40,580 nucleotides of DNA, from NCBI GenBank assembly GCA_024281095.1, contig JAMXLJ010000153.1:1-40580 (forward strand). Direction: 5' to 3'. Below are positions 5,846-21,711 of the stretch, piece by piece; positions within the stretch are counted from its first letter, which is position 1; every line of letters begins with the position of its first letter. The notes under the pieces were generated by a model. The model had not been told where the DNA came from. It saw only the letters and a program-made list of their open reading frames with translations, and ran no database searches. This DNA is from Acidimicrobiia bacterium (GTDB lineage Bacteria > Actinomycetota > Acidimicrobiia > IMCC26256 > JAMXLJ01). The position numbers were made by a program, and so were the translations under genes.

Positions 5846-5849
5846 GGGG

Positions 5850-6710
5850 CTACCGGGCCGCGCGCCGCTCGGCCGCTTCGACCGCGTTGCGGAAGAGCAT
5901 CGCGACCGTCGTCGGGCCCACCCCGCCGACCCGGGGCGTGATCCATCCGGCGACGTCGCCGACCGACTCGTCGACATCGGGCAGGAGCCGCCGGCCCTCG
6001 TAGCGCACGCCGCCGCCGACGACGACCGCACCCGGTTGCACGTGCTCGGGTTGGAGGATCCCGGGCACTCCCGCGGCCGCGATGACGATCGGCGCACGGC
6101 GTGTGTACTCGGGCCAGTCGGCGACGCCGGTGTGCACGACCGTGACCGCGGCGTTCGCGGTCGGACGCTTCTGGCTCAGCAGCAGTGCGAGGGGGCGTCC
6201 GAGCGTGGTGCCCCGTCCGAGGATGACGACCTCGCGGCCGGCGATCGCGATCTCGTAGTACGCGAGCAGGGCCTCGATGCCGGCCGGTGTGCACGGCACC
6301 GGGCCGGGCATGCTCAAGGCGAGCCGGCCCATGTTGAGCGGATGCAGCCCGTCGACGTCCTTGTCGGGATCCATCTCGAGGAGCGCGGCCTCGTAGTCGA
6401 TGCCGGGCGGCGTCGGGTGCTGCACGAGCATGGCGTCGACGGACGGGTCGTCGTTGAAGTCGTGGATGGCGGCCAACAGATCGGCCTGCGTGGCGTCGGC
6501 GGGCAGGTGATGGTGTGGCGAGTTGAAACCGAGCTCGGTCGCCTTCTCCTGCTTCATGCGGATGTAGCCCGCGCTGGCCGGGTCATCGCCCACGAGGATC
6601 GTGCCGAGCCCCGGACGGTGACCGTTCTCGACGAGCTTCGCGATGCGCGGCGCCAGATCCGCGAACACCGCCTCCGCCACGGGCCCGCCGGGCATCAGTT
6701 TCGCAGTCAT
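5850..6710 (-). CDS. folD: Methylenetetrahydrofolate dehydrogenase/cyclohydrolase
   Basis: A 286-residue bifunctional enzyme converting 5,10-methylene-THF to 10-formyl-THF, the one-carbon donor used by PurN and PurH encoded just upstream. The catalytic segment SAGYIRMKQEKATELGF has the expected Tyr and Lys. DVDGLHPLNMGRL is the substrate loop. The dinucleotide-binding loop is VILGRGTTLGRPLALLL, the actinobacterial variant of the usual GRSxxVGxP. The C-terminus has DVDESVGDVAGWITPRVGGVGPTT. The ATG at 6710 is 15 bases after the purH stop, so it is co-transcribed. The shared folate chemistry explains the operon. Confidence 0.95.
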   Translation of the reverse strand: MTAKLMPGGPVAEAVFADLAPRIAKLVENGHRPGLGTILVGDDPASAGYIRMKQEKATELGFNSPHHHLPADATQADLLAAIHDFNDDPSVDAMLVQHPTPPGIDYEAALLEMDPDKDVDGLHPLNMGRLALSMPGPVPCTPAGIEALLAYYEIAIAGREVVILGRGTTLGRPLALLLSQKRPTANAAVTVVHTGVADWPEYTRRAPIVIAAAGVPGILQPEHVQPGAVVVGGGVRYEGRRLLPDVDESVGDVAGWITPRVGGVGPTTVAMLFRNAVEAAERRAAR

Positions 6711-6725
6711 CTCTGTGATGCCTCC

Positions 6726-8246
6726 TCAGTGGAGGAAGTGCCGTTCGCCGGTGAACACCATCGCTACTCCGAGCTCGTCCGCGCGCGCGATGTTCACCTC
6801 GTCGCGTATGGCGCCACCGGGCTGCACGATGACCGCGACACCGGCTGACGCGGCCGCCTCGATCCCGTCGGGGAACGGATAGAACGCGTCGCTCGCGCTC
6901 GCGCCACCCTTGGCCCGTCCGTCCGCCTTCTTCGCCGCGATCTCCCCCGCCTCGACCCGGTTCTGCTGCCCGGCGCCGATGCCGACGGCCTGGCCGCCCT
7001 TCACGAGCACGATCGAGTTCGACTTCACGTGCCCGCAGATGCGCCACGCCAGTTCGGCGTCGCGCCATTGTTCCTCGGTGGGTGCGACGCGTGTGACGAC
7101 CTTCCACTGGTCGCGCGTGGCGGCGAAGTGGTGCGGCTCCTGCACGAGGAACCCGCCCGCGAGCTGGCGGTAGTCGCGGGTTTGTGGGCCGGGCGCGGGC
7201 GCCTCGAGCAGGCGCGTGTTCTTTCGCTTGGCCCTGAGCATGTCGAGCGTGCCGGGCTCGTACGACGGCGCGATGACCACGTCGGCCTGTGGGCCGGCGA
7301 CCATCGCGGCCGCAGTGGCTTCGTCGAGCGGCCGGTTCAATGCGACGATGCCACCGAAGGCAGACCGCTCGTCGCACTCCAGCGCGCGCTGATACGCGGT
7401 CGCGGGGTCGCCGGCGACGGCGACGCCGCACGGGTTCGCGTGCTTGATGATGGCGCACGTCGGTTGGTCGCCGAGGTCGTGCACCAAGCGCCATGCGGCG
7501 TCGGTGTCGTAGTAGTTGAGGTATGACAGCGCGAGGCCGCTGTGCTGCACGACGTCGTCCCACCAGCTGCGCGTGCCGGCCGCTCGGTACCGCGCCGCCT
7601 GCTGGTGCGGGTTCTCGCCGTAGCGGAGGTGCTCGTCGGTGCGGTCGAGCGCCACGACGAGGTGCTGCGGCAGCAGCTCGTCATGTTGGAGCCACTCGAG
7701 GATCGCGGCGTCGAACGCAGCGGTCGTCGCGAATGCGTCGATCGCGAGCTCACGGCGCGTGTCGTCGCCGATGGTGCCGTCGTTCGCGTCGAGCTCCGTG
7801 ACGAGTCCCTCGTACTGCTCGGCGGACGTGATCACCGTGACCCACGCGTGGTTCTTCGCCGCGGCTCGGATCATGGCGGGACCACCGATGTCGATGGTCT
7901 CGATGTCGGGTCGCTCGGTGAACGGATACAGGCTCGTGACGACGAGCTGGAACGGCGCGATGCCGTGGCGTTCGAGGTCTTCGCGATGCGTCGGCTTGCC
8001 GAGGTCGGCGAGGATGCCCCCGTGGACCTTCGGGTGCAGCGTGACGACGCGGTGGTCGAGCATCTCGGGCGCGCCGGTGACCTGCTCGACCGTCGTCACG
8101 GGCAGGCCAGCCTCTTGCAGCGCACGGGCCGTGCCGCCCGACGAGACGAGCTCGACACCATGGCGCACGAGCGCCCGCGCGAGGTCGACGACACCGGTCT
8201 TGTCGTAGACCGACAGCAATGCCCGTTCGATCTTGATCCGACTCAC
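6726..8246 (-). CDS. purH: AICAR transformylase/IMP cyclohydrolase
   Basis: A 506-residue bifunctional enzyme for the last two steps of IMP synthesis, using 10-formyl-THF. The N-terminal IMP cyclohydrolase domain shows RALLSVYDKTGVVDLARAL, LVSSGGTARAL and TLHPKVHGGILAD. The larger AICAR transformylase domain has RYGENPHQQAA, IIKHANPCGVAV, ALECDERSAFGGIVALN and a C-terminal SDAFYPFPDGIEAA. Length is typical. The GTG at 8246 overlaps the purN TGA stop as GTGA, so the two are translationally coupled. folD follows after 15 bases. Confidence 0.95.
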   Translation of the reverse strand: MSRIKIERALLSVYDKTGVVDLARALVRHGVELVSSGGTARALQEAGLPVTTVEQVTGAPEMLDHRVVTLHPKVHGGILADLGKPTHREDLERHGIAPFQLVVTSLYPFTERPDIETIDIGGPAMIRAAAKNHAWVTVITSAEQYEGLVTELDANDGTIGDDTRRELAIDAFATTAAFDAAILEWLQHDELLPQHLVVALDRTDEHLRYGENPHQQAARYRAAGTRSWWDDVVQHSGLALSYLNYYDTDAAWRLVHDLGDQPTCAIIKHANPCGVAVAGDPATAYQRALECDERSAFGGIVALNRPLDEATAAAMVAGPQADVVIAPSYEPGTLDMLRAKRKNTRLLEAPAPGPQTRDYRQLAGGFLVQEPHHFAATRDQWKVVTRVAPTEEQWRDAELAWRICGHVKSNSIVLVKGGQAVGIGAGQQNRVEAGEIAAKKADGRAKGGASASDAFYPFPDGIEAAASAGVAVIVQPGGAIRDEVNIARADELGVAMVFTGERHFLH

Positions 8247-8881
8247 GCTTCTGCAGTTCCTTCCGCTTCCAGCTTGGGCCGATCGCGCTCGGCCCCATCG
8301 ATCTTGGCCTCGTCGACCTTGGCTCCATCGAGCCGGGCGACGAGCTCGCGAAGCACTCGCGGGTACAGCTCGCGCTCGACCTCCTTGATGCGTTCGTGCA
8401 ACGACTCCACGGTGTCGCCCGCGAGCACCGGGACGGCCTGCTGGGCCAGGATCGGTCCGTCGTCGACCTCGAGGCGGGCGAAGTGCACGGTGCAGCCGGT
8501 GACCTTCACTCCGGCCTCGAGCGCTTCACGCACGGCGTGCCAACCCTTGAAGGCCGGGAGCAGCGCGGGATGCGTGTTGACGATCCGGTCGGGAAACCGG
8601 TCGTGGATGGGCTTCTCGAGAATGGTGCCGAATCCCGCCATCGCCACGAGGTCGACACCGTGCTGCTCCAGCGTGTCGACGACTCCGTGCGTGTACTCGA
8701 CCCGGTCGAAGTCAGGCCCGAAGCTCGCGCGCTCCGCGAGAACCGCGGGAATACCCGCGCGCTGCGCGCGGGCGATGGCTTCGCAGGGACGGTCGACCAC
8801 GACCACGACGATGGGCAGCTGCGCGTCGATGAGCGCCTGCAGGTTGGTCCCCGTACCCGACGCCAGCACACCGATGCGCAT
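8243..8881 (-). CDS. purN: Phosphoribosylglycinamide formyltransferase
   Basis: A 212-residue GAR transformylase using 10-formyl-THF in purine synthesis. The ATG at 8881 begins MRIGVLASGTGTNLQALIDA, the usual N-terminus of this family; a longer frame upstream is not needed. Catalytic segments are IVNTHPALLPAFKGWHAV (Asn and His) and TGCTVHFARLEVDDGPILAQ (Asp), in the expected order. The C-terminal tail has a repeated charged pattern (LDGAKVDEAKIDGAERDRPK) that looks like an unstructured extension. A TACCTT box seven bases before the ATG suggests a leaderless start. It is first gene of purN-purH-folD. Confidence 0.93.
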   Translation of the reverse strand: MRIGVLASGTGTNLQALIDAQLPIVVVVVDRPCEAIARAQRAGIPAVLAERASFGPDFDRVEYTHGVVDTLEQHGVDLVAMAGFGTILEKPIHDRFPDRIVNTHPALLPAFKGWHAVREALEAGVKVTGCTVHFARLEVDDGPILAQQAVPVLAGDTVESLHERIKEVERELYPRVLRELVARLDGAKVDEAKIDGAERDRPKLEAEGTAEA

Positions 8882-8888
8882 GCTGCTC

Positions 8889-8894
8889 AAGGTA
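8889..8894 (-). promoter_or_regulatory. -10 box for leaderless purN transcript
   Basis: TACCTT on the minus strand, then seven bases, then the purN ATG. No Shine-Dalgarno precedes the ATG. The same hexamer serves as the -10 of the groES promoter. No good -35 is seen; a CGAAGGGGTCG element lies at 8909-8919, where one would be expected. Confidence 0.35.
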
Positions 8895-9009
8895 CCTGTT
8901 GGTCCTGCCGAAGGGGTCGAAGGGTTCCGCGGGCGGAGGGTCCTTGCATTCATCGGGGTCTCATGTTCAGCTTCGCTGGCCGACCCCGGCACAACTGGAG
9001 GTCCCGGTC

Positions 9010-9474
9010 GTGGACAAGCTCAAGGAGCTCACGCTGGGCGAGAAGATCATCGTCGCGGCAGCCGTCGTGCTGTTCATCGACTCCTTCCTGCCCTGGTACA
9101 GCATCGACATCAGCATCTTCCACTACTCGCGCAACGGCTGGCAGGCGCCGAACTCGTTCCTGTCGGTGGTCGCGATCCTGCTCGGCATTGCCATGGCCGC
9201 GCAGGTGCTCGTCAGCCGGCTCGGCACCGTCGACATGCCGGACAGGATGGGCTCGCTCGGCTGGGGAATGGTGCACCTCATCGCGGGCGGTGTCGCGTTC
9301 CTGTTCGTCGTCATCAAGTGGCTGAACAACACCGACTTCACCGCGTACGGGCTGTACCTCGGGCTCATCTGCACGGCCGCGCTCGCGTTCGGCGGCTTCA
9401 CGGTCGCCAAGGAGCGCGGCGAGTTTCCCGCGACGAGAGGCACCGGCGGCACGCCGGGCGGCCCGTCGATCTGA
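9010..9474 (+). CDS. Four-helix integral membrane protein of unknown function
   Basis: A 154-residue protein. The GTG at 9010 is chosen because GGAGG sits nine bases before it at 8997-9001 and the product then begins VDKLKELTLGEKIIVAAAVV; a longer frame from 8899 lacks such support. Four hydrophobic helices are visible at about residues 13-29, 51-70, 86-105 and 113-130. A PWYS motif follows the first helix, and the tail is short, polar and Gly-rich (GTGGTPGGPS). The pattern of a helix followed by LPWY is common in actinobacterial small membrane proteins without known function. It is transcribed away from purN. Confidence 0.8.
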   Translation: MDKLKELTLGEKIIVAAAVVLFIDSFLPWYSIDISIFHYSRNGWQAPNSFLSVVAILLGIAMAAQVLVSRLGTVDMPDRMGSLGWGMVHLIAGGVAFLFVVIKWLNNTDFTAYGLYLGLICTAALAFGGFTVAKERGEFPATRGTGGTPGGPSI

Positions 9475-9500
9475 CCGTTCCGTTCGCGCTTCTCGGCCCC

Positions 9501-9529
9501 GGCCCACCTGCGCCACGCGTGGGTGGGCC
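9501..9529 (+). terminator. GC-rich hairpin after the membrane-protein gene
   Basis: GGCCCACC (9501-9508) pairs with GGTGGGCC (9522-9529) around a 13-base loop, 27 bases after the stop at 9474. No T-run follows, so it is only terminator-like. Confidence 0.35.
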
Positions 9530-9642
9530 GCGTCGCGTCGAGATCCAGCACGCACCGCAGGGCGGGACGCCGAGCGCGTCTCGAATCGCCGGCCCCGCTC
9601 GCCGCACCGAGCTTCTCCAACCACGCGCAGCACCCCAGCTCA

Positions 9643-9691
9643 CCGACCCCTTCGCGCCGAATCGACGGTCGATTCGGCGCGAAGGGGTCGG
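9643..9691. repeat. 49-base near-perfect palindrome
   Basis: Two 24-base arms (9643-9666 and 9668-9691) are exact reverse complements around a single G at 9667. The left arm begins CCGACCCCTTCGCGCC. There is no T-run on either side. It lies in the 256-base gap between two plus-strand genes and ends 22 bases before a TAGATT box. It could be an extended operator, a cruciform/REP-like element or a terminator. An 11-base part (CGAAGGGGTCG) also occurs at 8909-8919 upstream of purN. Confidence 0.85.
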
Positions 9692-9713
9692 GATCAGTGT
9701 CACTGCGGGGCGG

Positions 9714-9719
9714 TAGATT
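9714..9719 (+). promoter_or_regulatory. Possible -10 box of the winged-helix-like gene
   Basis: TAGATT lies 11 bases before the GTG at 9731, predicting a very short or absent leader. The 49-base palindrome ends where the -35 region would be. Confidence 0.3.
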
Positions 9720-9730
9720 CCGGTTGTGCC

Positions 9731-10402
9731 GTGCGGGCGGCCGCGCCGGTCGCGCACACCCTTCCCCGGATGTCGTCCACGCCTTGCGCGCCCGAAGCCG
9801 CGCGGCACAGGTCACGGGAGAATCGTGTGCGCCGGTTCAGAGCTCGTCCGTCACGACGGGAACAACTCCAACGCACGCGCGCCGCACTCATCGCGGAAGC
9901 GGGTGAGATCGACACCGCATTCCAGCGGATGGCGCTGCGCATGGCGTCGATTCGCACCGAGCTCGCACGCCTCCGCGAGGCGCTCTGGCCTGCGTCACCC
10001 GGCCGGGGATGGCGAGGATTCCGCCGCCCCCGTGTCGGAGGGCCCGAGCCGGTCGGCCGCCCCGCTCCACCTGCCCTGCCTCTGCACGGTCGCGCGCTCC
10101 GGCACGCGGCGATGGCGGTCCTCGCGCGCGCCCGGCGCCCGCTCAGCCTGCCCGAGATCCATCGCGCGCTCCACGTCGGGGGTTACGCCATCGCGGGTCG
10201 TACGCCGGTGAAGACGCTCGCGGACGCGCTCGGTTACGAGCACGATCGCGGCCGCGCCCGGCGCGTGCGGCGTGGCGTCTACGAGCTCGCGGAGCTCACC
10301 CCGGCGCGCCGGCGTCGAGTGCTACAGCGCGGCGACCACCTCGGCCATCAAGTCGCCCGCCTCGGTGGGGTTGAGCCCCACCCGCACGCCCGCAGCGCGT
10401 AG
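9731..10402 (+). CDS. Putative winged-helix-like protein
   Basis: Up to 223 residues if translated from GTG at 9731; an ATG at 9770 is an alternative. The first 40 residues are Arg-rich and low in complexity. Residues 43-86 look like a helical or coiled-coil region (REQLQRTRAALIAEAGEID then MASIRTELARLREAL). Residues about 122-190 resemble a winged helix used in DNA binding or specificity domains: MAVLARARRPLSLPEIHRAL, then TPVKTLADALGYEHDRGRA and a VRRGVYELAEL wing. The last 27 codons run antisense through the end of sucD. The upstream palindrome makes an autoregulator plausible, but that is inference. The exact start is uncertain. Confidence 0.6.
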   Translation: MRAAAPVAHTLPRMSSTPCAPEAARHRSRENRVRRFRARPSRREQLQRTRAALIAEAGEIDTAFQRMALRMASIRTELARLREALWPASPGRGWRGFRRPRVGGPEPVGRPAPPALPLHGRALRHAAMAVLARARRPLSLPEIHRALHVGGYAIAGRTPVKTLADALGYEHDRGRARRVRRGVYELAELTPARRRRVLQRGDHLGHQVARLGGVEPHPHARSA

Positions 10403-11206
10403 CGCTTCCATCTTGGCCTGGGCGGTGCCCTTGGAGCCCGAGATGATCGCGCCCGCGTGTCCCATCTTCTTGCCGGGTGGCGCGGTCACGCCCGCCACGT
10501 ACGCGACGACCGGCTTGGTCATCTCGCCCGTGATGAACGCGGCCGCTTCTTCCTCCGCGGAACCGCCGATCTCGCCGAACATGATGACCGCGCGCGTCTC
10601 GGGATCGGCTTCGAACCGGCGCAGGCAGTCGATGAAGCTCGTTCCCGGCACCGGGTCGCCCCCGATGCCGACACACGTGGTGACGCCGATGCCCTTCTCG
10701 CCGAGCTCCTTGAGGGCCTGATACGTCAACGTGCCCGACCTGCTGACGATCCCCACGGGGCCGCCTTCCTTCGCCACCTCGGCCGGGATGAAGCCGATGT
10801 TGCACTTCCCCGGCGTGAGCAGACCCGGACAGTTCGGCCCGATGAGGTGCGTGCCGGGGAAATCCCGCCGCAGGCGGTTGAAGAACATCGCCTCGTCGTG
10901 CATCGGGATGCCCTCGGTGAGGCACACGATGAGCTCGATGCCGGCCTCGGCCGCCTCCATCACGGCGGCCGCCGCGCCCGGGGCGGGCACGATGACCATC
11001 GAGGCGTTCGCGCCCGTGTCCGCGACGGCCTCCTTCACCGTGGCGTGAACCGGAATTCCCTCGACGTCGGTGCCGGCCTTCTTCGGGTTCACCCCCGCGA
11101 CGACCTGCGTGCCGTATGCCCGGTTGCGCAGCCCGTAGAAGCGGCCCTGGCTCCCGGTGAGCCCCTGGACGACAACCTTGGTGTTCTCGTCGACGAAGAT
11201 GCTCAC
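10322..11206 (-). CDS. sucD: Succinyl-CoA synthetase alpha subunit
   Basis: A 294-residue subunit of the succinyl-CoA ligase that makes ATP or GTP from succinyl-CoA in the TCA cycle. The CoA-binding N-terminus has VVVQGLTGSQGRFYGLRNRA. LIGPNCPGLLTPGKCNIGFIP and IVSRSGTLTYQAL are ligase signatures. The phosphorylated histidine is in KKMGHAGAIISGSKGTA. The GTG start at 11206 overlaps the sucC stop as GTGA, so the subunits are coupled for equal synthesis. Its 3' end is overlapped by a plus-strand gene for 81 bases. Confidence 0.95.
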   Translation of the reverse strand: MSIFVDENTKVVVQGLTGSQGRFYGLRNRAYGTQVVAGVNPKKAGTDVEGIPVHATVKEAVADTGANASMVIVPAPGAAAAVMEAAEAGIELIVCLTEGIPMHDEAMFFNRLRRDFPGTHLIGPNCPGLLTPGKCNIGFIPAEVAKEGGPVGIVSRSGTLTYQALKELGEKGIGVTTCVGIGGDPVPGTSFIDCLRRFEADPETRAVIMFGEIGGSAEEEAAAFITGEMTKPVVAYVAGVTAPPGKKMGHAGAIISGSKGTAQAKMEALRAAGVRVGLNPTEAGDLMAEVVAAL

Positions 11207-12357
11207 CGTGCCTCCCCGGCTCCCGCGAGCTCCACCGCGGTGCGAGCCGCCTCCAACATCGTCGGCTTCGACACGAGCCGGTCCGACTCGTGGTCCTTCA
11301 GGATCGCCCGTCCCTCTTCGGCGTTGGTGCCGTCGAGACGGATGACGATCGGCGCGCGCAACTCCACCCGTTCGAGCGCCTGCACGATCCCCTTCGCGAC
11401 CTCCTCACCGCGCGTGATGCCGCCGAAGATGTTGATGAAGATCGACTGCACGTTGTCGTCGGAGTTGATGACCTCGAGCGCGCCCGCCATGACATCCGCG
11501 TTCGCGCCGCCACCGATGTCGAGGAAGTTCGCCGGCGACCCACCGACCTGGTTCACCACGTCGCAGGTGCTCATCGCGAGGCCGGCACCGTTGGCGATGA
11601 TTCCGACGGTGCCGTCGAGACCGACGTACTGGAGCCCACGTTCCTTCGCCAGCTGCTCGCGACGGTCGAGCGATTCCTGGCCGCCGAACTCGCTCCATTC
11701 AGGATGCCTGTATGCCGCGTTGTCGTCGAGGCTCACCTTCGCGTCCAGCGCGTGCACGTTGCCTTCCGGTGTGAGGATCAACGGGTTGATCTCGACGAGA
11801 TCCGCGTCGCCTTCGGTATACGCCCGGTACAGCGAGAGCAGGATCGCAACGGCACCGTCGGTCGCACGCGGATCGAGCCGAGCCCGCGTCACCCATTCAC
11901 GGCACGCGTCCTCGGGCAGGCCGTCGACCGGGTCGATGTGGATGCGGGCGATCGCGTCGGGCTCCTCCGCGGCGACCTGCTCGATGTCGACGCCGCCACG
12001 CGCGGACAGCATCCCGAGGTGCTGCTTGGCGGCGCGATCGAGCGTGAAGGACGCGTAGTACTCCTGCTCGATGTCGCTCGCCTTCTCGATCCACAGCACG
12101 CGGACCACGTGGCCCTTGATGTCCATGCCGAGGATGTTCGACGCATGAGTTCGCGCTTCCTCGGTGTTGTTGGCGAGCTTGACGCCGCCGGCCTTGCCGC
12201 GGCCGCCCACCTGGACCTGCGCCTTCACCACCACGGGGTAGCCCAACCGGTCGGCGGCCTCGACCGCGGCGTCGACGCTCGACACGGCCGCGCCGGGCGA
12301 GACCGGGATGCCGAAGCGCGCGAACAGTTGCTTGCCTTGATACTCGAAGAGATCCAC
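11203..12357 (-). CDS. sucC: Succinyl-CoA synthetase beta subunit
   Basis: A 384-residue ATP-grasp subunit that binds the nucleotide and succinate. The N-terminus MDLFEYQGKQLFARFGIPV is standard, followed by VVKAQVQVGGRGKAGGVKLA in the ATP-grasp fold. The C-terminal CoA-ligase part has NGAGLAMSTCDVVNQVGG, NFLDIGGGA and NIFGGITRGEEVAKGI. The GTG at 12357 has GAGGAGCGGA upstream. It is preceded by the B12-binding mutase subunit 33 bases away on the same strand, which links methylmalonyl-CoA conversion to succinyl-CoA use. Confidence 0.95.
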   Translation of the reverse strand: MDLFEYQGKQLFARFGIPVSPGAAVSSVDAAVEAADRLGYPVVVKAQVQVGGRGKAGGVKLANNTEEARTHASNILGMDIKGHVVRVLWIEKASDIEQEYYASFTLDRAAKQHLGMLSARGGVDIEQVAAEEPDAIARIHIDPVDGLPEDACREWVTRARLDPRATDGAVAILLSLYRAYTEGDADLVEINPLILTPEGNVHALDAKVSLDDNAAYRHPEWSEFGGQESLDRREQLAKERGLQYVGLDGTVGIIANGAGLAMSTCDVVNQVGGSPANFLDIGGGANADVMAGALEVINSDDNVQSIFINIFGGITRGEEVAKGIVQALERVELRAPIVIRLDGTNAEEGRAILKDHESDRLVSKPTMLEAARTAVELAGAGEAR

Positions 12358-12390
12358 TCCGCTCCTCGGGACGGGTTCGTGTGCGAGTCG

Positions 12391-12795
12391 CTATGCAGCC
12401 CGCGCGTCGAGCGTCTGCTCGAGCCAGTCGCTGATCCGCTGCAGCGGTGTGCCGGGGGTGAACAGTGCCGCCACGCCGGCCGCCTCGAGCTTCGCGACGT
12501 CGGCCTCGGGGATAATGCCGCCACCGAAGACGAGCACGTCGCCGAGACCACGCTCGCGCAACAGCTCGAGCACCTTCGGGAACAGCGTCATGTGGGCACC
12601 CGAGAGCAGCGAGAGCCCGACCGCGTCCGCGTCTTCTTGGAGCACGGTCTCGGCGATCTGCTCGGGAGTCTGGTGGAGGCCCGTGTAGATGACCTCGAAT
12701 CCCGCGTCGCGCAGCGCGCGTGCGATCACCTTCGCACCCCGGTCGTGCCCGTCGAGCCCGGGCTTTGCGATGACGACGCGATAGCGCCGCTGCAT
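12391..12795 (-). CDS. Cobalamin-binding subunit, methylmalonyl-CoA mutase type
   Basis: A 134-residue stand-alone B12-binding domain. The start at 12795 ([20 protein letters not shown]) has GGAGG upstream. DGHDRG holds the DxHxxG motif, and His17 would be the lower axial cobalt ligand. [13 protein letters not shown] and VFGGGIIP complete the cofactor site. This matches the small or C-terminal part of methylmalonyl-CoA mutases, which interconvert methylmalonyl-CoA and succinyl-CoA. The large catalytic subunit is not in the window, so it must be encoded elsewhere, and another B12-dependent mutase is possible. It probably leads the sucCD transcript. Confidence 0.9.
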
Positions 12796-12859
12796 CGAAA
12801 CCTCCGACGTGGCGTCTCGTAGGCTTCCGGCCAAGGAGGACACGATACTCACGGCGCGC

Positions 12860-12889
12860 CGAGCAGGTCATTTTGGGGCGAGCAGGTCA
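12860..12889. repeat. Tandem 11-base repeat in the divergent accDA/mutase promoter region
   Basis: CGAGCAGGTCA occurs at 12860-12870 and 12879-12889, 19 bases apart, each followed by a short tract ending in GGGG. It lies between the divergent mutase-subunit and carboxyltransferase genes. On the minus strand each copy reads TGACCTGCTCG, and the nearer copy would occupy the -35 position 17 bases from a TATCGT box. This looks like a pair of regulator sites. Confidence 0.55.
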
Positions 12890-12906
12890 CCTGGGGAGGA
12901 AGACCG

Positions 12907-14391
12907 CTGCACTGGCTCGATGACATCGAGCAGTTCGTGGACGATTTCCGCGCCTGGGACGCCGCGCTCGGAGGCGTTACCGGCCGCAACCCTCTCGAGT
13001 GGGACGGGTACGACGACGTGTTGGCCACGGCCCGGGGCCGGAGTGGAGCCGACGAGTCGGTCGTCACCGGTACGGGGATGGTGCGCATCGTCCCCGGCGG
13101 GCCGGGCATCCCCGTCGCCGTCATCTCGTCGGTGTTCGACTTCGTCGGCGGGTCGATGGGCCTCGCGTCCGGCGAACGTGTCGTCCGGGCGTTCGACCGT
13201 GCGCGGCACGAGCGCCTGCCCGTGCTCGTCATCGCCCGAACGGGCGGTGCCCGCATGCAGGAGGGCATGCTCTCCCTCGTGCAAATGGCCCGGACGGCCG
13301 ACGCCGCCCGGCGCCACGCCGCCGCGGGTCTGCTGCAGCTCGCGTACCTCCGCTCGCCGACCACCGGCGGCGTCTACGCGTCGTTCGCGTCGCTCGCCGA
13401 CGTGCTGTGGGCCGAGCCGGAGGCGTTCGTCGCCTTCGCGGGCCCACGCGTCGTGGAGGTCGTCACCGGGGAGGCGCCACCCGATCACTCGCACCGGGCC
13501 GAGGGCGCGCTCGCGGCGGGCCTCGTGGATGCCGTGCTCACTGCCGACACCGCGCGCGAGGCGCTCGCACTGCTGCTGGCGGCAACCCGCGCTCCGGCCC
13601 GGCGGGCGATGCCCGAAGCGCCCGCTCCCGTGGCGCTCGCGCCCGACGATCGCGGGCGCGACGCGTGGGCACTCGTCGAGGGCGTCCGCGCTCCGATGCG
13701 CTCGTCCGGTCGCGAATGGCTGGCCCGGGTCGTGCCGTCGCGCGTGGAACTGCGCGGTGACCGCGCCGGCGGCACCGACGATGTCGTGGTGGCCGGCATC
13801 GGCACGACCGCCGCGGGAACCCCGACCGCGTTCCTCGCGCTCGACCGTCACGCAGGCGACGGACGGCCCCGGCCGCCCGGCTATCGCACCGCCCGGCGCG
13901 TGCTCGCGCTCGCGGCCCGGCTCGATCTTCCCGTCGTGACGTTCGTCGACACCCCCGGCGCCGACCCGGCCGAGGGCTCCGACCACGGCGGCCTCGCCGG
14001 TGAGATCGCGCGCACGCTCGCCGCGATCACCGCGCACCCGGCACCAACCGTGAGCGTCGTCGTGGGCGAGGGCGGCAGCGGCGGCGCACTCGCATTCGCC
14101 GCGACCGACCGCCTGTATCTGTTCGATGACGCCGTGTTCTCCGTGCTCGCACCCGAAGGCGCGGCGGCGATCCTCGAGCGCGACCCGGCCCGTGCGCCGG
14201 ACCTCGCCTCCCGGCTACGGCTCACCGCATGGGACATGGTCGACCTCGGAATTGCCGACGGCATCGTCGCCGGCGACGAGAGCGGCGACGCCGTACGCGC
14301 GATCGTGGAGCACGCGCTCGCGACGGCGAACCCCGGCGACGGACGCGCCCGATTCGACGAGGCCACCCGCACCTGGCTCCGGAGCACCTGA
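12907..14391 (+). CDS. Fused acetyl/propionyl-CoA carboxyltransferase (AccD-AccA)
   Basis: A 494-residue single-chain carboxyltransferase. The first half is AccD-like: VFDFVGGSMGLASGERVVRA and IARTGGARMQEGMLSLVQMA. The second half is AccA-like: FVDTPGADPAEGSDHGGLAG, VVVGEGGSGGALAFAATDRL and FSVLAPEGAAAILERD. It would move carboxyl from carboxybiotin to acetyl-CoA or a similar acyl-CoA. The N-terminal zinc ribbon of E. coli AccD is absent. Start: CTG at 12907 sits seven bases after GGGGAGGA and gives LHWLDDIEQF; the first conventional codon, GTG at 12937, has no Shine-Dalgarno at proper distance. The next gene starts within its stop codon. Biotin carboxylase and carrier are not in the window. 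Confidence 0.88.
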   Translation: MHWLDDIEQFVDDFRAWDAALGGVTGRNPLEWDGYDDVLATARGRSGADESVVTGTGMVRIVPGGPGIPVAVISSVFDFVGGSMGLASGERVVRAFDRARHERLPVLVIARTGGARMQEGMLSLVQMARTADAARRHAAAGLLQLAYLRSPTTGGVYASFASLADVLWAEPEAFVAFAGPRVVEVVTGEAPPDHSHRAEGALAAGLVDAVLTADTAREALALLLAATRAPARRAMPEAPAPVALAPDDRGRDAWALVEGVRAPMRSSGREWLARVVPSRVELRGDRAGGTDDVVVAGIGTTAAGTPTAFLALDRHAGDGRPRPPGYRTARRVLALAARLDLPVVTFVDTPGADPAEGSDHGGLAGEIARTLAAITAHPAPTVSVVVGEGGSGGALAFAATDRLYLFDDAVFSVLAPEGAAAILERDPARAPDLASRLRLTAWDMVDLGIADGIVAGDESGDAVRAIVEHALATANPGDGRARFDEATRTWLRST

Positions 14392-14864
14392 TGACCGCGC
14401 CACCCACGAGATCCACCCGGCGAAGCGACCTGACGCCGCTCATCGCCGCCGCGGTGATCTTCGCCACCCTCGGCGTCGTCGTCGCGCTGCTCATCCTGTA
14501 CGCGACCGGTGGCGGCAGCCAGCCCACCAAGCCGGCGCCGTTCCCTGCCGGGCTCGAGCGCTCCATCCGAAGTGACGTCAAGAGTGGCGGGCCGGTGTTC
14601 TATCCCGACCCGTTCCGGGGGTACCGCAGCATCCTCTTCGCCGTGGAGCAGGACCGCCTCGTCGCCTTGGCGACACATACGTGGGGCAACAACAAGTGCA
14701 CGGTGCACTGGAGGGGCTCGATCAACCGGTTCCAGGACTGCCACGGCAACCGGCTCACGAGCGAGCAGCTTCCGCGCTATCCGTACGTCGTCCCGAGCAG
14801 CGGCCCGACGAACGGCGCGGTGCTCGTCGACGTGCGCACGTTGCTACCGCCGCCGGCTCCGTAA
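14391..14864 (+). CDS. Membrane-anchored Rieske-like protein lacking cluster cysteines
   Basis: A 157-residue protein. The ATG at 14391 overlaps the carboxyltransferase TGA by one base. Residues 16-38 form a single N-terminal membrane helix, so the rest is probably outside the membrane. Residues 80-150 read like a Rieske iron-sulfur fold: LVALATHTWGNNKCTVHW, then NRFQDCHGNRL, LPRYPYVV and VLVDVRTLLP. In a true Rieske protein the ligands are CxH and CxxH. Here the first Cys is Ala94 (A-T-H96) and the second is missing from FQDCHG. His96, His118 and the two disulfide-type cysteines (103 and 117) remain. It should fold but not hold 2Fe-2S. The function is unknown; the link to the carboxyltransferase is by position only. 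Confidence 0.7.
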   Translation: MTAPPTRSTRRSDLTPLIAAAVIFATLGVVVALLILYATGGGSQPTKPAPFPAGLERSIRSDVKSGGPVFYPDPFRGYRSILFAVEQDRLVALATHTWGNNKCTVHWRGSINRFQDCHGNRLTSEQLPRYPYVVPSSGPTNGAVLVDVRTLLPPPAP

Positions 14865-14869
14865 GGGTC

Positions 14870-15568
14870 TCAACGCTCCTCGAGCGAGAGCGAGTCGACG
14901 TCCGGCCGCTGCGCAAGCTCGGTCAGCAGCTGGTCGAGGTCGACGCGGATGCCCGTCTTCACGCCGGCGGTGACGTCGCACTGGTCGCTCTCGGTGTCGC
15001 GCTCGATCTGGAGGCTTCGAAGCTCGACGTTGGGAAGCCCCCGAAGCGCCTCCACGAACGGCCCCGGCTCGACGCCGGGCCGCAAGCGGAACGACGCGAC
15101 CTCTGAACGCCGCCCGAGATGATCGCGCACCCAACGGCGCACACTGCGAAAGAGCACGAGCGACACGAGCGTTGCCACGGTGACCGCCACCGCGGCCCAG
15201 TAGTAACCGACCCCGATCGCGAGACCGATCGCGGCCGTGACCCACATCGATGCCGCGGTCGTGAGACCACGCACCGAACTGCCCTGCTTGAGGATCGCGC
15301 CGCCGCCGAGGAAACCGACCCCGACGACCACCTGTGACGCGACCCGACTGATGTCGATCTGCACGTTCGTGTTGTTGCGTCCGGTCGTGAACGGCGCGAA
15401 CGCGTGAATGGAGATCAGCCCGAACAGCGCCGCGCCGAGACAGAGCACGACATGGGTGCGGAAGCCCGCAGGCTGCGCGTCGATCTCGCGCTCGATGCCG
15501 ATCGCGCCCCCGAGCACGACGGCGAGCACGACCCGCAGCACCATCTCCGGTTGGTCCAGGTGGAGCAT
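14870..15568 (-). CDS. MgtC/SapB-family membrane protein
   Basis: A 232-residue inner-membrane protein. The N-terminal part has four to five helices with the family signature GGAIGIEREIDAQPAGFRTH, then CLGAALFGLISIHAF, VGVGFLGGGAILKQGSSVRG and LTTAASMWVTAAIGLAIGVG. The last 80 residues form a soluble ACT-like domain (RLRPGVEPGPFVEALRGLP and following). Family members are linked to magnesium limitation or acid and intracellular survival, sometimes through the F-type ATPase; no substrate is proven here. The ATG at 15568 has GGGAG upstream. It lies 36 bases after the PcrA helicase stop and converges with the Rieske-like gene, with 5 bases between stops. Confidence 0.9.
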   Translation of the reverse strand: MLHLDQPEMVLRVVLAVVLGGAIGIEREIDAQPAGFRTHVVLCLGAALFGLISIHAFAPFTTGRNNTNVQIDISRVASQVVVGVGFLGGGAILKQGSSVRGLTTAASMWVTAAIGLAIGVGYYWAAVAVTVATLVSLVLFRSVRRWVRDHLGRRSEVASFRLRPGVEPGPFVEALRGLPNVELRSLQIERDTESDQCDVTAGVKTGIRVDLDQLLTELAQRPDVDSLSLEER

Positions 15569-15604
15569 CGCCGCTCCCGGGCTCCAGCCTCGGAGGCGCC
15601 GGAG

Positions 15605-18079
15605 CTACGCAGACAGCTTGCGCAGCGGCGCCCAGGCGAGGAGGAGCCGCTTCTCGCCCGCGTCGCGGAACTGCACGACGGCCTCAGTCTTGTCGCCTTC
15701 GCCGACGAGGTCGAGGATCACGCCCTCGCCGAACTTCTCGTGGGCGACGTCGTCGCCGACGCGAAGCCCAAGGTGCTCTGCCCCGCGGGCACCGGTGGCG
15801 ACACCTGCACCGCGCACGGCACCGGCCGAACCTGTGCGCACGGCCGCGGAGACGACCGCGTCGCGGTGCGTGCCGAACCCTCGGCGGCGGCGCTCCTCAC
15901 CCTGCACCCGCACGAGGTTCTCGGGTATCTCGGAGAGAAAGCGACTCGGCGGGTAGTAGTCGGTGGCACCGAACAGGCTGCGACTCCACGCGTGGCAGAG
16001 GTAGAGGCGCTCGCGGGCCCGCGTGATCCCGACGTAACAGAGGCGGCGCTCCTCCTCGAGCTCGTCGGGGTCGCCGAGGCTGCGCGCGTGCGGGAACACA
16101 CCGTCTTCCAGGCCGCTGAGGAACACCACCGGGAACTCGAGGCCCTTGGCCGAGTGCAACGTCATGAGCGTCACCGTGGAACGATCGCGGCCGTCGTCTG
16201 CGGTGTCGTCGTCGGCGTCGAGGTCCGTGACGAGCGAGATCGCCTCGAGGAAGGCCTGGACCCGAGCCAGCCCGGTGGGGATCTGCACCGGCGACTCGTC
16301 GCGCTCCGCAGTGCCGACGCCCGCGATCGCACCCAGCGCCCCGAGGGCGTCGAGGTGCCCGGAGTCGAGCTGCTCGTCGAACTCCGAGGCCACGCCGACG
16401 AGCTCCTGCAGGTTCTCGAGCCGGCCCTGGGCCTCGATGCTGCGTTCGGACTCCAGCTCCGCCAGGTAGCCGGTGCGGGCCAGCGTGGCCTCGAGCACCG
16501 ACGCCACACCGCCCGCCGCGACTCCCTCGAGCTGCGTCATCACGTCGAGCAACTCGCGGATGCCGCCGAGCGCCTTTCCGGTGACGCCCGCGGCCGCGCC
16601 CTCGCGCAAGGCTTCGCGGAATGCGAGCCCCGACGACTTGGCGTATGTGTCGACGCGCGACACGGACGTGTCGCCGACGCCGCGCTTGGGCGTGTTGACG
16701 ATGCGCTTCCAGCTCACTTCGTCGTCGGGGTTCACCAACGCGCGCAGGTACGCAAGCGCGTCCTTCACCTCACGACGGTCGTAGAACTTCGTACCGCCGA
16801 TGACCCGGTACGGCACGCCCGACCGCACGAGCGACTCCTCGATGACGCGGCTCTGCGCGTTCGTGCGGTAGAAGACGGCGACGTCTTCGAACCGGTGGCC
16901 CTCTGAATCGGCGAGCCGGCCGATCTCGTGTGTGATGAACGCAGCTTCGTCGTGCTCGTCTTCTGCGTGGTAGCGGGTGATGAGCTCGCCGTCGACCTGT
17001 TCGGTCCACAGTTGCTTGGGTTTGCGTGCCGCGTTGTTCGCGATGACCGCGTTGGCTGCGTCGAGGATGCGCTGCGTGGAGCGGTAGTTCTGTTCGAGCA
17101 CGATGACCGACGCCTCGGGAAAGGCTTCCTCGAAGCGCAACAGATTCCGGTAGTCGGCGCCGCGGAACTTGTAGATCGCCTGGTCGGCGTCGCCGACGAC
17201 CATGACGTTGCGGTGCTCCTGCGCCAGCAGGCGCACGAGCTCCCACTGCGCGGCGTTGGTGTCCTGGAACTCGTCCACGAGGACGTGCCGGAACCGCGAA
17301 CGCCAGCGTGCCAGCGCATCGGGGTGCTCGCGGAAGAGGCGCACCACCAGCGTGAGCAGGTCGTCGAAGTCGACCGCAGACGCGTCGGCGAGGCGTCGCT
17401 GGTACTCGACGTACACGTCGGCGAGCCGGCGCTCGGGCGGCGACACCGCGCGGTCGAGCGCCTCGGCCGGGCCGACCAGCTCGTTCTTGAGGGCCGAGAT
17501 GCGGCCCTGCAGCTGTCGCGCCGGGAACCGCTTGGGGTCCAGGCTCAGGTCGCGGCGCACGTAGTCGACGAGACGCACGGCGTCGGACTGGTCGTAGATC
17601 GAAAACGACGAGCGGTACCCGAGCAGGTCGGCGTCGCGGCGCAGGATGCGGGCGCAGGCCGAGTGGAAGGTCGACACCCACATGCGCTGCGCGACCGGCC
17701 CGACGAGGGCCCCCACGCGCTCTTTCATCTCGCCCGCGGCCTTGTTGGTGAACGTGATCGCGAGGAGCCCGAACGGCGACGCACGCCGGCTGGCCACGAG
17801 ATACGCGATGCGGTGCGTGAGCACCCGTGTCTTGCCCGAACCTGCGCCGGCCACGACGAGGATCGGCCCGTCGCCGGCGACCACCGCTTCGCGCTGCACC
17901 GGGTTGAGGCCCTCGAGCAACTCTCCCGGGTCACGGCGCGGACGCCCGCCGTCATCGGTGCGGACGTCGGTGCCCCCGTCGCCTCGGGAATCGTCGTCAC
18001 GGGAATCGTCGTCGCGGGGATCGGCGTCGCGGCGCTCGGCGTCGCGGGGATCGGCGGTCGTGCGCAGCGGACTCGTCAT
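15605..18079 (-). CDS. pcrA: ATP-dependent DNA helicase, PcrA/UvrD type
   Basis: An 824-residue superfamily 1 helicase that unwinds DNA 3' to 5' in nucleotide excision repair and replication-fork maintenance. After a charged N-terminal tail (residues 1-50, Asp/Arg repeats), motifs run in order: NPVQREAV (Q motif), VVAGAGSGKTRVLTHR (Walker A near residue 81), ITFTNKAAGEMKERV, LVDEFQDTNAAQWELV (Walker B), VVGDADQAIYKFRGAD, LEQNYRSTQRIL, TLHSAKGLEFPVVFL and VGITRARERLYL. The last 50 residues (VGDDVAHEKFGEGVILDLVG) resemble the tudor-like domain of PcrA that binds RNA polymerase. The ATG at 18079 follows a TACGAT box by nine bases, so the leader is very short. Confidence 0.95.
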   Translation of the reverse strand: MTSPLRTTADPRDAERRDADPRDDDSRDDDSRGDGGTDVRTDDGGRPRRDPGELLEGLNPVQREAVVAGDGPILVVAGAGSGKTRVLTHRIAYLVASRRASPFGLLAITFTNKAAGEMKERVGALVGPVAQRMWVSTFHSACARILRRDADLLGYRSSFSIYDQSDAVRLVDYVRRDLSLDPKRFPARQLQGRISALKNELVGPAEALDRAVSPPERRLADVYVEYQRRLADASAVDFDDLLTLVVRLFREHPDALARWRSRFRHVLVDEFQDTNAAQWELVRLLAQEHRNVMVVGDADQAIYKFRGADYRNLLRFEEAFPEASVIVLEQNYRSTQRILDAANAVIANNAARKPKQLWTEQVDGELITRYHAEDEHDEAAFITHEIGRLADSEGHRFEDVAVFYRTNAQSRVIEESLVRSGVPYRVIGGTKFYDRREVKDALAYLRALVNPDDEVSWKRIVNTPKRGVGDTSVSRVDTYAKSSGLAFREALREGAAAGVTGKALGGIRELLDVMTQLEGVAAGGVASVLEATLARTGYLAELESERSIEAQGRLENLQELVGVASEFDEQLDSGHLDALGALGAIAGVGTAERDESPVQIPTGLARVQAFLEAISLVTDLDADDDTADDGRDRSTVTLMTLHSAKGLEFPVVFLSGLEDGVFPHARSLGDPDELEEERRLCYVGITRARERLYLCHAWSRSLFGATDYYPPSRFLSEIPENLVRVQGEERRRRGFGTHRDAVVSAAVRTGSAGAVRGAGVATGARGAEHLGLRVGDDVAHEKFGEGVILDLVGEGDKTEAVVQFRDAGEKRLLLAWAPLRKLSA
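17985..18059. repeat. Five imperfect 15-base tandem repeats in the pcrA 5' end
   Basis: Units of 15 bases (for example CGGGAATCGTCGTCA) repeat at 17985, 18000, 18015, 18030 and 18045 and encode the Asp/Arg-rich tail of the helicase (pattern DxRDD/ADPRD). The period is a multiple of three, so copy-number change would keep the frame. Confidence 0.75.
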
Positions 18080-18133
18080 GACCGCCTCATCGTACCGGCG
18101 TGCGGGTGTGACCCGTACGTATGTTCGGTGCGC

Positions 18134-18430
18134 TTATTCGGCCGCCGGGTCGAGGCGGAGCTCGGCCGTGTGGAGCTCCGTGGTGTCGTTGAACCCGGGA
18201 GGAGGCCCCGCCTCGCGCCACGAGCGCAGGAGCCGGGTGCGGTCCTCGTTCAACGCGACCGAGAACGAGCCGGTCCCCTCGTCGACGTCGAGCGCGAAGT
18301 AGGGCTGCCAGTCGGCTTCGAGCGTCGGCGAGTTCGGGTCCGCGTCCTTGGGGAGGCGCCGGAACCGCATCCGCTCCGTGTCGAAGAGCCAGATGCTGTG
18401 CGAGGAGTCGATGCGCTGGATGGCGCCCAT
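18134..18430 (-). CDS. Conserved-looking small hypothetical protein
   Basis: A 98-residue protein of unknown function. The ATG at 18430 is preferred because CCGGAG precedes it by seven bases; a longer frame from 18559 would add a Pro-rich stretch and run up to the dtd stop. The product begins MGAIQRIDSSHSIWLFDTER, then MRFRRLPKD, WQPYFALDVDEGTGSFSVAL and RLLRSWREAGPPP. It is acidic, soluble-looking, without cysteines or membrane helices. The alternation of charged and aromatic residues suggests a small beta-rich fold. It sits between dtd and pcrA on the same strand. No named family is recognised. Confidence 0.7.
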   Translation of the reverse strand: MGAIQRIDSSHSIWLFDTERMRFRRLPKDADPNSPTLEADWQPYFALDVDEGTGSFSVALNEDRTRLLRSWREAGPPPGFNDTTELHTAELRLDPAAE

Positions 18431-18559
18431 AAAGAACTCCGGGGGGCCGGGCCGGACTCCGGCGAGACCGACAGCGTACCCCGGGTCGGGGTGGATCGCT
18501 TCAGGGTGGGAGACCCTTCTCATGGAAGCATCAGGATGCCCCGGGAAGGGGCGCCCCAA

Positions 18560-18997
18560 TCAGGTTTCTACCAGCAGCGTGACGGGGCCGTCGTTGACGA
18601 GCTCCACGGCCATATCGGCCCCGAAGACCCCCGTGGCCACCGTGGCCCCGAGCGCCCGTAGGGCGTCGGAAAACGCTCTGACCAGCGGTTCTGCCGCCGC
18701 CGGCGCCGCCGCCGCGGCCCAGGAGGGCCGCCGGCCGCGCCTGGTGTCGCCGTAGAGCGTGAACTGGCTCACGACGAGCACCGCTCCACCGACCGCGGCG
18801 ACAGAAGCGTTCATCTGGCCGTCATCGTCGGGGAAGATCCGGAGGTGCCAGACCTTGGAGGCGAGCCTGACCGCGGCGGCCTCGTCGTCGTCGTGGGTGA
18901 CACCGACGAGCGCGCAGATGCCGGCGCCGATCTCGCCCACGATCTCGCCGTCGACGCGCACGCGCGCGCCCGTGACGCGTTGCACGAGCGCGCGCAC
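18560..18997 (-). CDS. dtd: D-aminoacyl-tRNA deacylase
   Basis: A 145-residue enzyme that removes D-amino acids wrongly attached to tRNA. It begins [20 protein letters not shown], the standard N-terminus. [17 protein letters not shown] is the first signature. [11 protein letters not shown] at the C-terminus corresponds to the cross-subunit NxGPVT motif and ends the protein as usual. Length is typical. The GTG at 18997 is 25 bases after the aldolase stop. A short hairpin (GCCCC 18538-18542 with GGGGC 18548-18552) lies just beyond its stop. Confidence 0.95.
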
Positions 18998-19022
18998 GCA
19001 GCGAACTCGCCCGGCGAGATGA

Positions 19023-20057
19023 TCAGGCCGCGCCGCTCTCCATGTCGGGCGAGTAGCTCCCCGAACGCGCCGCGCCGTTCAGCCGGGCCCGATGGAGGAA
19101 CGCGCGCTGACCCGCGTCGACGTTCGCCTTGTCACCCTTCCACGCCTTGAGCGACGGGGCCTGGAGCGCGCGTCCGTACGAGAACGACAGTTGCCACGGC
19201 AGCGGACCACGCTTGTTCATCGCGTCGAGGTTCGCAGTCGCTTCCTCGTCGCTCTGGCCACCGGAAAGGAAAACGATTCCCGGAACGGCGGCGGGAACCG
19301 CGGTCTTGAAGCAGCGGATCGTCGCGTCCGCGACTTCGTCGGGCGACGCCTTCCCACGATCCTTGCCCGGCAGCACCATGTTCGGCTTGAGGAGCATGCC
19401 CTCGAACTCGACCCGTTGCGCGTAGAGCTCGTCGAATGTGGCGTGAAGGGAGTCGCACGTGACCTGGTAGCACCGCTCGATCGTGTGGTTGCCCTCCATC
19501 ATCACTTCGGGCTCCACGATGGGGACGATGCCCTCCTCCTGGCAGAGCGCCGCATACCGGGCCAACGCGTGGGCGTTGACGTCGAGGCAGTACTGCGTGG
19601 GGATGCGGTCGCCGTCGATGTTGATCACCGCGCGCCACTTCGCGAACTTGGCGCCGAGGCCCCGGTATTCGACGAGGCGCTCGCGCAACCCGTCGAGGCC
19701 TTCGGTGACCATCTCGCCCGGCGACTTCGCGAGCGGTTTCGCGCCGGTGTCGACCTTGATGCCCGGAATGATGCCTTGGCGCTGCAGGATCTCGACGAGG
19801 GGCGTGCCGTCGGACGCCTTCTGGCGAATGGTCTCGTCGTAGAGAATGACCCCGCTGATGTAGTCGCCCGCACCCTCGGTGGTGAACAGCATCTCGCGGT
19901 AATCGCGGCGGTTCGTCTCCGTCGACTCGACACCGATCGAGTCGAAGCGCTTCTTGATCGTGCCGCTGCTCTCGTCGGCGGCGAGGATGCCCTTCCCCGG
20001 CGCAACGAGCGCCCTCGCAACCTCTTCCAGATCAGTGTTACTCCGCACGGTACTCAT
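19023..20057 (-). CDS. Fructose-bisphosphate aldolase, class I
   Basis: A 344-residue Schiff-base aldolase of glycolysis and gluconeogenesis, cleaving fructose 1,6-bisphosphate. The class I signature [17 protein letters not shown] contains the catalytic lysine. Other matches are [49 protein letters not shown] and [10 protein letters not shown]. Class I enzymes of this animal-like type occur in some actinobacteria beside or instead of metal-dependent class II. The ATG at 20057 is chosen because GGGGGAG precedes it; nine extra upstream codons are open. guaA ends 52 bases upstream on the same strand. Confidence 0.95.
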
Positions 20058-20109
20058 CGCTCCCCCTCGAGAATCGTCGAGCACGACATTCTTGCCCCTG
20101 ACGAGCGTG

Positions 20110-21711
20110 TCACTCCCATTCGATGGTTCCGGGCGGCTTCGACGTGACGTCGTAGGCGACCCGGTTCACGCCCGGCACCTCGTTGATGATCCGCGACGCG
20201 ATCCGCTCCAACACGTCGTAGGGCAGCCGGGCCCAGTCGGCCGTCATGGCGTCGTCAGACGTGACCGCCCGGATGACGATCGGGTACGCGTACGTTCGGT
20301 CGTCGCCCATCACGCCCACCGTGCGCACGACCGGCAGCACCGCGAAGCTCTGCCAGATCTTCCGGTACAGGCCGGCGCGCTTGATCTCCTCGACGACGAT
20401 CTCGTCGGCGCGTTGCAGGATCTCGACCCGTTCGGGCGTGATCGTGCCGATGATCCGCACGCCGAGGCCGGGGCCCGGAAACGGCTGACGCCACACGATC
20501 TCCTCGGGCAACCCGAGCTCCTCGCCGACCGCACGCACCTCGTCCTTGAACAGGTGGCGCAGCGGCTCGACCAGCTCGAAGTCCATGTCGTCGGGAAGAC
20601 CGCCGACGTTGTGGTGACTCTTGATCACCGCGTTGTCCGAGCCGCCCGACTCGACGATGTCGGGATACAGCGTTCCCTGCACGAGGAACCGCGCGTCGCC
20701 GAGGTCGCGCGCAACTTCTTCGAACACACGGATGAACGTCTCGCCGATGATCTTGCGCTTGCGCTCCGGGTCGATGACGTCGTTCAACGCGGCGAGAAAC
20801 CGGTCGGCCGCCTTCACGTGCACGAGGTCGATGTTGAACTGCCGGCGGAATGTCTCCTCGACCTGTTCCGCTTCGCCCTTGCGCAGCAGGCCGGTGTCGA
20901 CGAAGACGCACGTGAGCTGATCACCGACCGCCTTGTGCACGAGCGCGGCCGCGACCGCCGAGTCGACGCCGCCTGACAGGCCGCAGATGACACGCTCGCT
21001 GCCGACGCGGGCGCGGATCTCGTCGATGCTCTCCTCGATGATGGACACGTTCGTCCACGTCGGCCGGCAGCCGGCGACGTCGTGGAGAAACGCCTTCAAG
21101 ATCTCCTGGCCCTGCGGCGTGTGCGCCACTTCGGGGTGGAACTGCACGCCGTAGAGCGCGCGGTCGCGATCCTCGAACGCCGCGACAGGAGCACCCGCCG
21201 AGGTCGCGATCGCGGTGAAACCGGACGGCGGCGTGACGATGCAGTCGGCATGGCTCATCCAGACTTCCTGTTCGACCGCGAGGTCTGCGAACAGCGGCGA
21301 GGGCGAGACGACGGAGAGCTCCGTGCGCCCGTACTCGCCGCCGCCCGTGCGCCGCACCTCGCCGCCGAGTTGCTGCGCGAGGAGTTGCGCGCCGTAACAG
21401 ATACCGAGCACGGGCACGCCCGCGCTGTACAGGGATGGGTCGATCGACGGCGCGCCGTCGACGTGCACCGATGCCGGGCCGCCCGACAGGATGATCGCCT
21501 TGGGCCGTCGGGCGAGCATCTCGGCGACGGGAGTCGTGCGCGACACGATCTCGGAGTACACGTGCGCCTCGCGCACGCGACGCGCGATCAGCTGCGCGTA
21601 CTGCGCCCCGAAATCGACCACCAACACGACTTCATTGGTCGCGCTCGCTGCCGGCCGGGATACCCCGCCCGCGGAAGCTCGCCGCTCCGGCCCACCATGC
21701 GTGGCTCCCAT
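20110..21711 (-). CDS. guaA: GMP synthase, glutamine-hydrolysing
   Basis: A 533-residue enzyme converting XMP to GMP with ATP and glutamine. The N-terminal class I glutamine amidotransferase domain shows [35 protein letters not shown] with the nucleophilic Cys, and [12 protein letters not shown] with His and Glu of the triad. The ATP pyrophosphatase loop is [17 protein letters not shown]. The C-terminal dimerisation domain ends KPPGTIEWE, as in the family. The ATG at 21711 (MGATHGG) is preferred, with GAAAGGGG upstream; a TTG at 21729 would add six residues. It follows guaB3 closely, matching their shared purine role. Confidence 0.95.

Follow-up and report, generated by a model that had tools for sequence, protein, structure and literature searches.

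A conserved protein family of Acidimicrobiia with a probable Rieske ancestry, no cluster ligand pattern, and an invariant cysteine pair

The 157-codon open reading frame at positions 14391 to 14864 of the window (the whole stretch of 40,580 nucleotides that was analyzed, from an Acidimicrobiia bacterium) is a genuine gene and is conserved. An iron cluster is what normally defines a Rieske domain, and the disulfide bridge next to that cluster is mostly described as serving its potential and stability. In the family to which this gene belongs, the cluster appears to have been discarded while the bridging cysteine pair has become the only element that stays invariant in many lineages of one bacterial class, and the family offers a natural test of the role of the bridge without iron. 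By analogy with cluster-free Rieske proteins, we consider it moderately probable that the product is a membrane-anchored, exported Rieske domain without a cluster that serves a membrane or envelope complex as a nonredox subunit with a structural, adaptor, or assembly role; for the nonredox adaptor role taken alone, our judgment is evenly balanced.

RESULTS

Gene and distribution

14391 to 14864, plus strand: gene of a Rieske-fold membrane protein, putatively cluster free (157 amino acids, ATG start), with homologs in relatives and purifying selection in seven homolog pairs

The G+C contents at codon positions 1, 2, and 3 of this reading frame were 0.63, 0.55, and 0.90, respectively, and dN/dS was between 0.055 and 0.30 in the seven close homolog pairs for which it was computed. 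These ratios, together with related genes in 42 of 61 relative genomes, ruled out a chance reading frame. In the search of the class, 98 of 247 Acidimicrobiia genomes gave matches, a number reduced to approximately 94 by the removal of nonmembers: G477, G486, and G492 had true Rieske fusions, and the match in G399 (E value of 9.6e-4) spanned mainly the helix region and was probably an artifact, like a permease (L080) that the phylum search caught via its membrane helix. Within the window's own order, matches were found in 36 of the 40 genomes listed. The family alignment (A6) had 51 members, with the partial sequences L005 and L036 left out; tblastn failed to recover two of the 42 matches, L037 and L042, which are absent from alignment A1. 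One family member, L186 (genome G449), is split across two frames by a frameshift that is either genuine or an assembly error.

The window protein fell below every family cutoff in Pfam and NCBIfam, and neither library matched it to a Rieske family, so that roughly 94 of the 247 sampled class genomes have a conserved membrane protein left nameless by these libraries. No match to PF00355 (Rieske) was listed for the window protein at E values up to 10 or for any of 40 family members at E values up to 1. Single-sequence searches of PDB and Pfam with the window protein returned chance-level matches only and no convincing solved structure, and a scan of the genome contigs with this one protein gave no match.

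Fold and ancestry

14535 to 14861, plus strand: predicted Rieske-fold domain, residues about 49 to 157 (VIA Z score of 9.5 to 9rk4_A over model residues 48 to 155; hhalign)

An earlier note on this DNA, made from the letters of the window, had proposed a Rieske fold and suggested a comparison of predicted structures with Rieske domains. The AF2 models of the window protein and of the homolog L060, which lacks both of the histidines discussed below, had mean pLDDT values of 80.5 and 81.2, respectively. For each model, all 50 of the rows listed by VIA were Rieske-type chains, and 9rk4_A was the best match to both the window protein (Z score of 9.5, rmsd of 2.7, 94 residues aligned) and L060 (Z score of 10.0, rmsd of 2.5, 94 residues aligned). 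The top 24 Foldseek rows for each model also were Rieske proteins, with best E values of 0.027 for the window model and 0.017 for the L060 model and no match with an E value below 0.001 for either.

Profile comparisons pointed to the same relationship. Without its helix, the family aligned by hhalign to 12 disulfide-type Rieske sequences with a probability of 96.3, an E value of 2e-9, and a score of 54.7, compared with at most 24.6 in 100 column shuffles and 14.0 for the reversed alignment, and a 40-member alignment gave a probability of 95.8 and a score of 52.6 in the same comparison. The score against 31 other Rieske sequences was 15.8, partly because those sequences have no bridge, and the contrast between 54.7 and 15.8 is driven partly by the cysteine pair itself. 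In preparing the Rieske set, we dropped one spurious frame (L048_4) and moved five sequences by eye into the disulfide group. Searches with the family profile also reached seven genuine Rieske proteins: four with CTHxxC...CPCHG motifs among 296 genomes of the phylum, which were the matches found outside the class (single-genome E values of 6.4e-9, 2.2e-7, 2.5e-5, and 4.5e-4), and three DoxX-Rieske fusions matched by a later profile in the class search. With the family profile, hmmsearch of PDB reached b6f Rieske chains only at E values of 0.15 to 0.56, amid unrelated entries, and a Rieske HMM run against the set of 51 members had a best E value of 0.0014. On the profile evidence, the domain is homologous to disulfide-type Rieske proteins beyond chance, and the fold and ancestry claimed in the earlier note were borne out by models and profiles to the point where we regard both as highly probable.

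Cluster ligands and the cysteine pair

14697 to 14699, plus strand: codon of Cys103, the first disulfide-position cysteine
14739 to 14741, plus strand: codon of Cys117, the second disulfide-position cysteine
14742 to 14744, plus strand: codon of His118, aligned with the second Rieske ligand histidine and not conserved

Rieske proteins carry the motifs CTHxGC and CPCHG, and the bridge is formed by the second cysteine of each. This pairing is described for AioB and for bc1 Rieske proteins in the portions of PMC3758308 consulted. In the profile alignment, Cys103 and Cys117 fell on these two bridge positions of CTHxGC...CPCHG, neither cluster cysteine was present, and the Gly/Pro (GPAP) loop was deleted; the window sequence had already been read as keeping the disulfide pair, lacking the iron-binding cysteines, and having a reduced Gly/Pro loop, and all three points held. 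Cys103 and Cys117 were the sole invariant columns of the 51-member alignment (51 of 51 each), followed by Pro68 (50 members), Gly54 (49), Leu127 (49), and Asp116 (44). The pair also was present in 16 of 17 further divergent members, the exception being the frame-shifted L186, with one cysteine only. A second cysteine pair nearer the domain start, perhaps a second disulfide, was seen in the divergent members L034, L038, L039, L040, L041, L172, L173, and L187.

The histidines behaved differently. The earlier note had stated that both of them remain and had proposed a conservation check at His96, Cys103, Cys117, and His118, in which the two cysteines were retained throughout but neither histidine was. 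His96 is not at a ligand position: it precedes Cys103 by 7 residues, whereas in CTHxGC the ligand histidine precedes the second cysteine by 3, at a position where the window protein has Asn100, and position 96 is histidine in 5 of the 51 members. His118 is aligned with a ligand, but its position is occupied by histidine in 9 members, by Asp in 20, by Asn in 8, and by Glu in 5, and the same-genus homolog L002 has Asp there. The ligand pattern CxH...CxxH occurred in 0 of 51 members, and no column of the alignment had a histidine majority.

Forms such as FVDPCDG, versus FxCPCHG, occur in other families of the class. The ligands have thus been lost as a trait of the family, and the histidines that the window protein has at positions 96 and 118 are largely accidental. 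A metal site built from His96 and His118 was ruled out, neither residue being conserved, as was an ordinary Rieske protein or electron carrier, the ligand pattern being missing in 51 of 51 members. The same absence makes iron or metal binding by the family unlikely, and the metal-binding module entertained in the earlier note was not supported. With the ligand set and the conserved histidine gone and the cysteine pair invariant, iron-based redox work is very unlikely, and family members very probably hold no iron-sulfur cluster, judging from the aligned residues.

The retained pair could itself be the working part if the Rieske scaffold has exchanged iron for thiol chemistry and now acts as a switch or sensor that cycles reversibly between dithiol and disulfide. 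The restriction of invariance to these two cysteines agrees with such a switch, and position 116, beside Cys117, is Asp in the large majority of members and could tune a thiol. However, purely structural disulfides are common in exported proteins. No CxxC-type motif is present, and the same two cysteines already form a bridge in Rieske proteins of the bc1 type and in the AioB of A. faecalis, according to the consulted portions of PMC3758308; we consider a switch unlikely. In the nonredox subunit that we favor, the cysteines that once tied together two cluster loops would have been kept as the only invariant feature, and we infer that they form a disulfide that staples an empty tip.

Membrane helix and export

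14433 to 14504, plus strand: predicted single transmembrane helix, residues 15 to 38 (AF2/DSSP)

The single N-terminal helix that had been noticed in the sequence was predicted in the model as well, and a second hydrophobic segment was found in none of the 51 members. In 36 of 51 members, lysine and arginine were more numerous on the N-terminal side of the helix; in 13, the two sides were equal. Because basic residues precede the helix, the predicted topology is N-in with the domain outside, which suggests an extracytoplasmic location. The Tat pattern that we tried fit 0 of 51 members, whereas the two bc-type Rieske proteins of the window's genome, which adjoin cytochrome b or c genes, have SRRQFF and GRRKIL before the helix. 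Loss of a Tat signal would be expected for a domain without a cluster to insert in the cytoplasm; such a domain would have no need to fold ahead of its export.

The genome's two bc-type Rieske systems and the apparent ancestry from disulfide-type Rieske proteins would fit a nonredox subunit or docking decoy of a bc/b6f-type respiratory complex, in which the old Rieske tip touches cytochrome b or the place of the Rieske subunit. The distribution of the gene argues against such a part: cytochrome b of the bc/b6f kind (PF13631) was found in 236 of 247 class genomes, with or without the Rieske-fold gene, so that most bc complexes manage without it. Since cytochrome b is this widespread, co-occurrence is uninformative about a respiratory partner. 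Additionally, the bc-type Rieske genes sit on other contigs, and the neighbors in the window are sucCD and genes for the B12-binding protein, the carboxyltransferase, MgtC, and PcrA, not bc genes. We therefore hold a bc/b6f decoy to be improbable. A bolder proposal is that the disulfide that guarded the cluster outlived it and is now a working element, in a membrane-tethered thiol switch or a nonredox docking decoy by which the quinol-oxidizing site of the Acidimicrobiia respiratory chain would be read or gated; this is quite doubtful.

Gene neighborhood

10322 to 12357, minus strand: sucD (10322 to 11206) and sucC (11203 to 12357), conserved divergent upstream genes
12391 to 12852, minus strand: B12-binding protein of the mutase small-subunit type (Pfam), the usual divergent neighbor, found in 28 of the 40 homologous loci scanned
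12937 to 14391, plus strand: stand-alone carboxyltransferase (Carboxyl_trans/ACCA, Pfam), overlapping the Rieske-fold gene by one base and not a conserved partner
15605 to 18079, minus strand: pcrA/uvrD helicase gene, conserved downstream and facing the Rieske-fold gene

The names sucD, sucC, and pcrA/uvrD are those that we take these window neighbors to have from their sequences. The conserved trait is the position of the Rieske-fold gene, divergent from sucCD-mcmB12 and facing pcrA. Among 40 scanned loci, which were taken from genomes already known to match, SucC was detected in 38 and was upstream and divergent in every one, and PcrA was detected in 37 and always lay downstream on the opposite strand; SucC and/or PcrA went undetected in five. 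The gene stands alone at this site, with no operon mate hinting at its function, and no nirB-like gene was noticed near it on reading the window's reading frames. In 12 loci from class genomes without the family, no Rieske-like reading frame that could represent an ancestral gene was seen at the same site among the frames left after filtering by codon G+C, a filter under which L152, L154, and L155 yielded no frames. The wider block, presumably icd-folD-purH-purN-sucD-sucC-mcmB12-(Rieske-fold gene)-pcrA-dtd-fba-guaA-guaB (window positions 4392 to 22948), has a strongly conserved order in related genomes.

The earlier note had coupled the protein to the carboxyltransferase, and this claim survived only in part. 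The stop codon of the carboxyltransferase does overlap the ATG of the Rieske-fold gene (TGATG, 14389 to 14393), but the two adjoin only in the window and in G017 (2 of 42 loci) and in 0 of the 40 other loci scanned; the translational overlap is real but sporadic. The G017 carboxyltransferase is 66% identical to that of the window and was the only close homolog among 25 other genomes searched, and in G060 and G354 carboxyltransferase homologs (42 to 46%) occupy the same site without the Rieske-fold gene. The enzyme was accordingly a weak candidate for a partner. A related possibility, that the protein is an accessory membrane anchor for this carboxyltransferase and the methylmalonyl-CoA branch, could draw on the overlap, on its recurrence in G017, and on the conserved site beside mcmB12 and sucCD, but it is very improbable given the missing enzyme elsewhere, its occurrence without the gene, and the positive-inside charge, which would place the domain outside, away from cytoplasmic enzymes. 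Sporadic beside the B12-binding mutase gene, the window carboxyltransferase also has a weak Pfam match to the malonate decarboxylase gamma subunit.

DISCUSSION

We propose that the domain of this family, which follows a single N-terminal membrane helix and is probably extracytoplasmic, arose from a disulfide-type (bc1/b6f-like) Rieske iron-sulfur protein, and that the cluster ligand set was lost and the proline loop deleted. The resulting protein would have no iron-sulfur cluster and would relay no electrons through iron; it would likely be a nonredox structural, adaptor, or assembly subunit, akin to PSB33/TEF5 in thylakoids or NirD in NirBD, which supports the repurposed structural module suggested in the earlier note. 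With the disulfide-type Rieske [2Fe-2S] proteins of bc1/b6f complexes (PF00355), the family shares the predicted fold, the register of the disulfide cysteines, the N-terminal membrane helix, and a likely extracytoplasmic domain, but it is without the cluster cysteines, conserved ligand histidines, GPAP loop, and Tat pattern and does not lie beside cytochrome b. Convergence, by which a small beta domain with a disulfide would merely resemble a Rieske protein, might account for the weak Foldseek E values and for a single-sequence Pfam search without Rieske, but it is highly unlikely in view of significant profile matches with shuffle controls, both disulfide cysteines in exact register, and intermediate-looking forms of the FVDPCDG kind.

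Few cluster-free Rieske proteins are known, and to NirD and PSB33/TEF5 the family would add an apparently exported bacterial counterpart. Our literature search, whose coverage mostly excluded subscription journals, found no paper recognizably on this family. The closest working analogue in print, in functional terms, is chloroplast PSB33/LIL8/TEF5, which likewise has a membrane-anchored Rieske-like domain without cluster-binding residues; in the consulted portions of PMC12164590 and PMC8003979, it is presented as an auxiliary, not electron-transfer, protein involved in photosystem II assembly. According to the same portions, PSB33/TEF5 differs from the family in being plant and algal only, with C-terminal helices and a position on the stromal side, and they mention no invariant disulfide pair.

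NirD, the small subunit of NADH nitrite reductase, has a Rieske fold to which our models aligned with VIA Z scores of 6.6 and 7.0 (4aiv) and 6.4 (2jo6), the values for 4aiv being lower than those of the better Rieske matches. NirD is soluble and cytoplasmic, a partner of NirB, and many NirD proteins are without cluster ligands. In B. bataviensis NirD, two ligands are substituted, as given in the consulted part of PMC3475470. Unlike the family, NirD has no membrane helix; among bacterial proteins it is the soluble analogue. The arsenite oxidase small subunit AioB (1g8j and 4aay) shares the Rieske fold, with VIA Z scores of 8.2 to 8.8, and has the disulfide in some members, as far as the consulted portions of PMC3758308 describe. 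AioB retains its cluster and may drop the disulfide, whereas the window family does the opposite. As a separate observation, a DoxX/DoxD membrane domain is fused to a genuine Rieske domain, with Pfam matches to both, in three class genomes, at L168:1033-2271 (minus strand), L169:351-1448 (plus strand), and L170:1268-2698 (minus strand).
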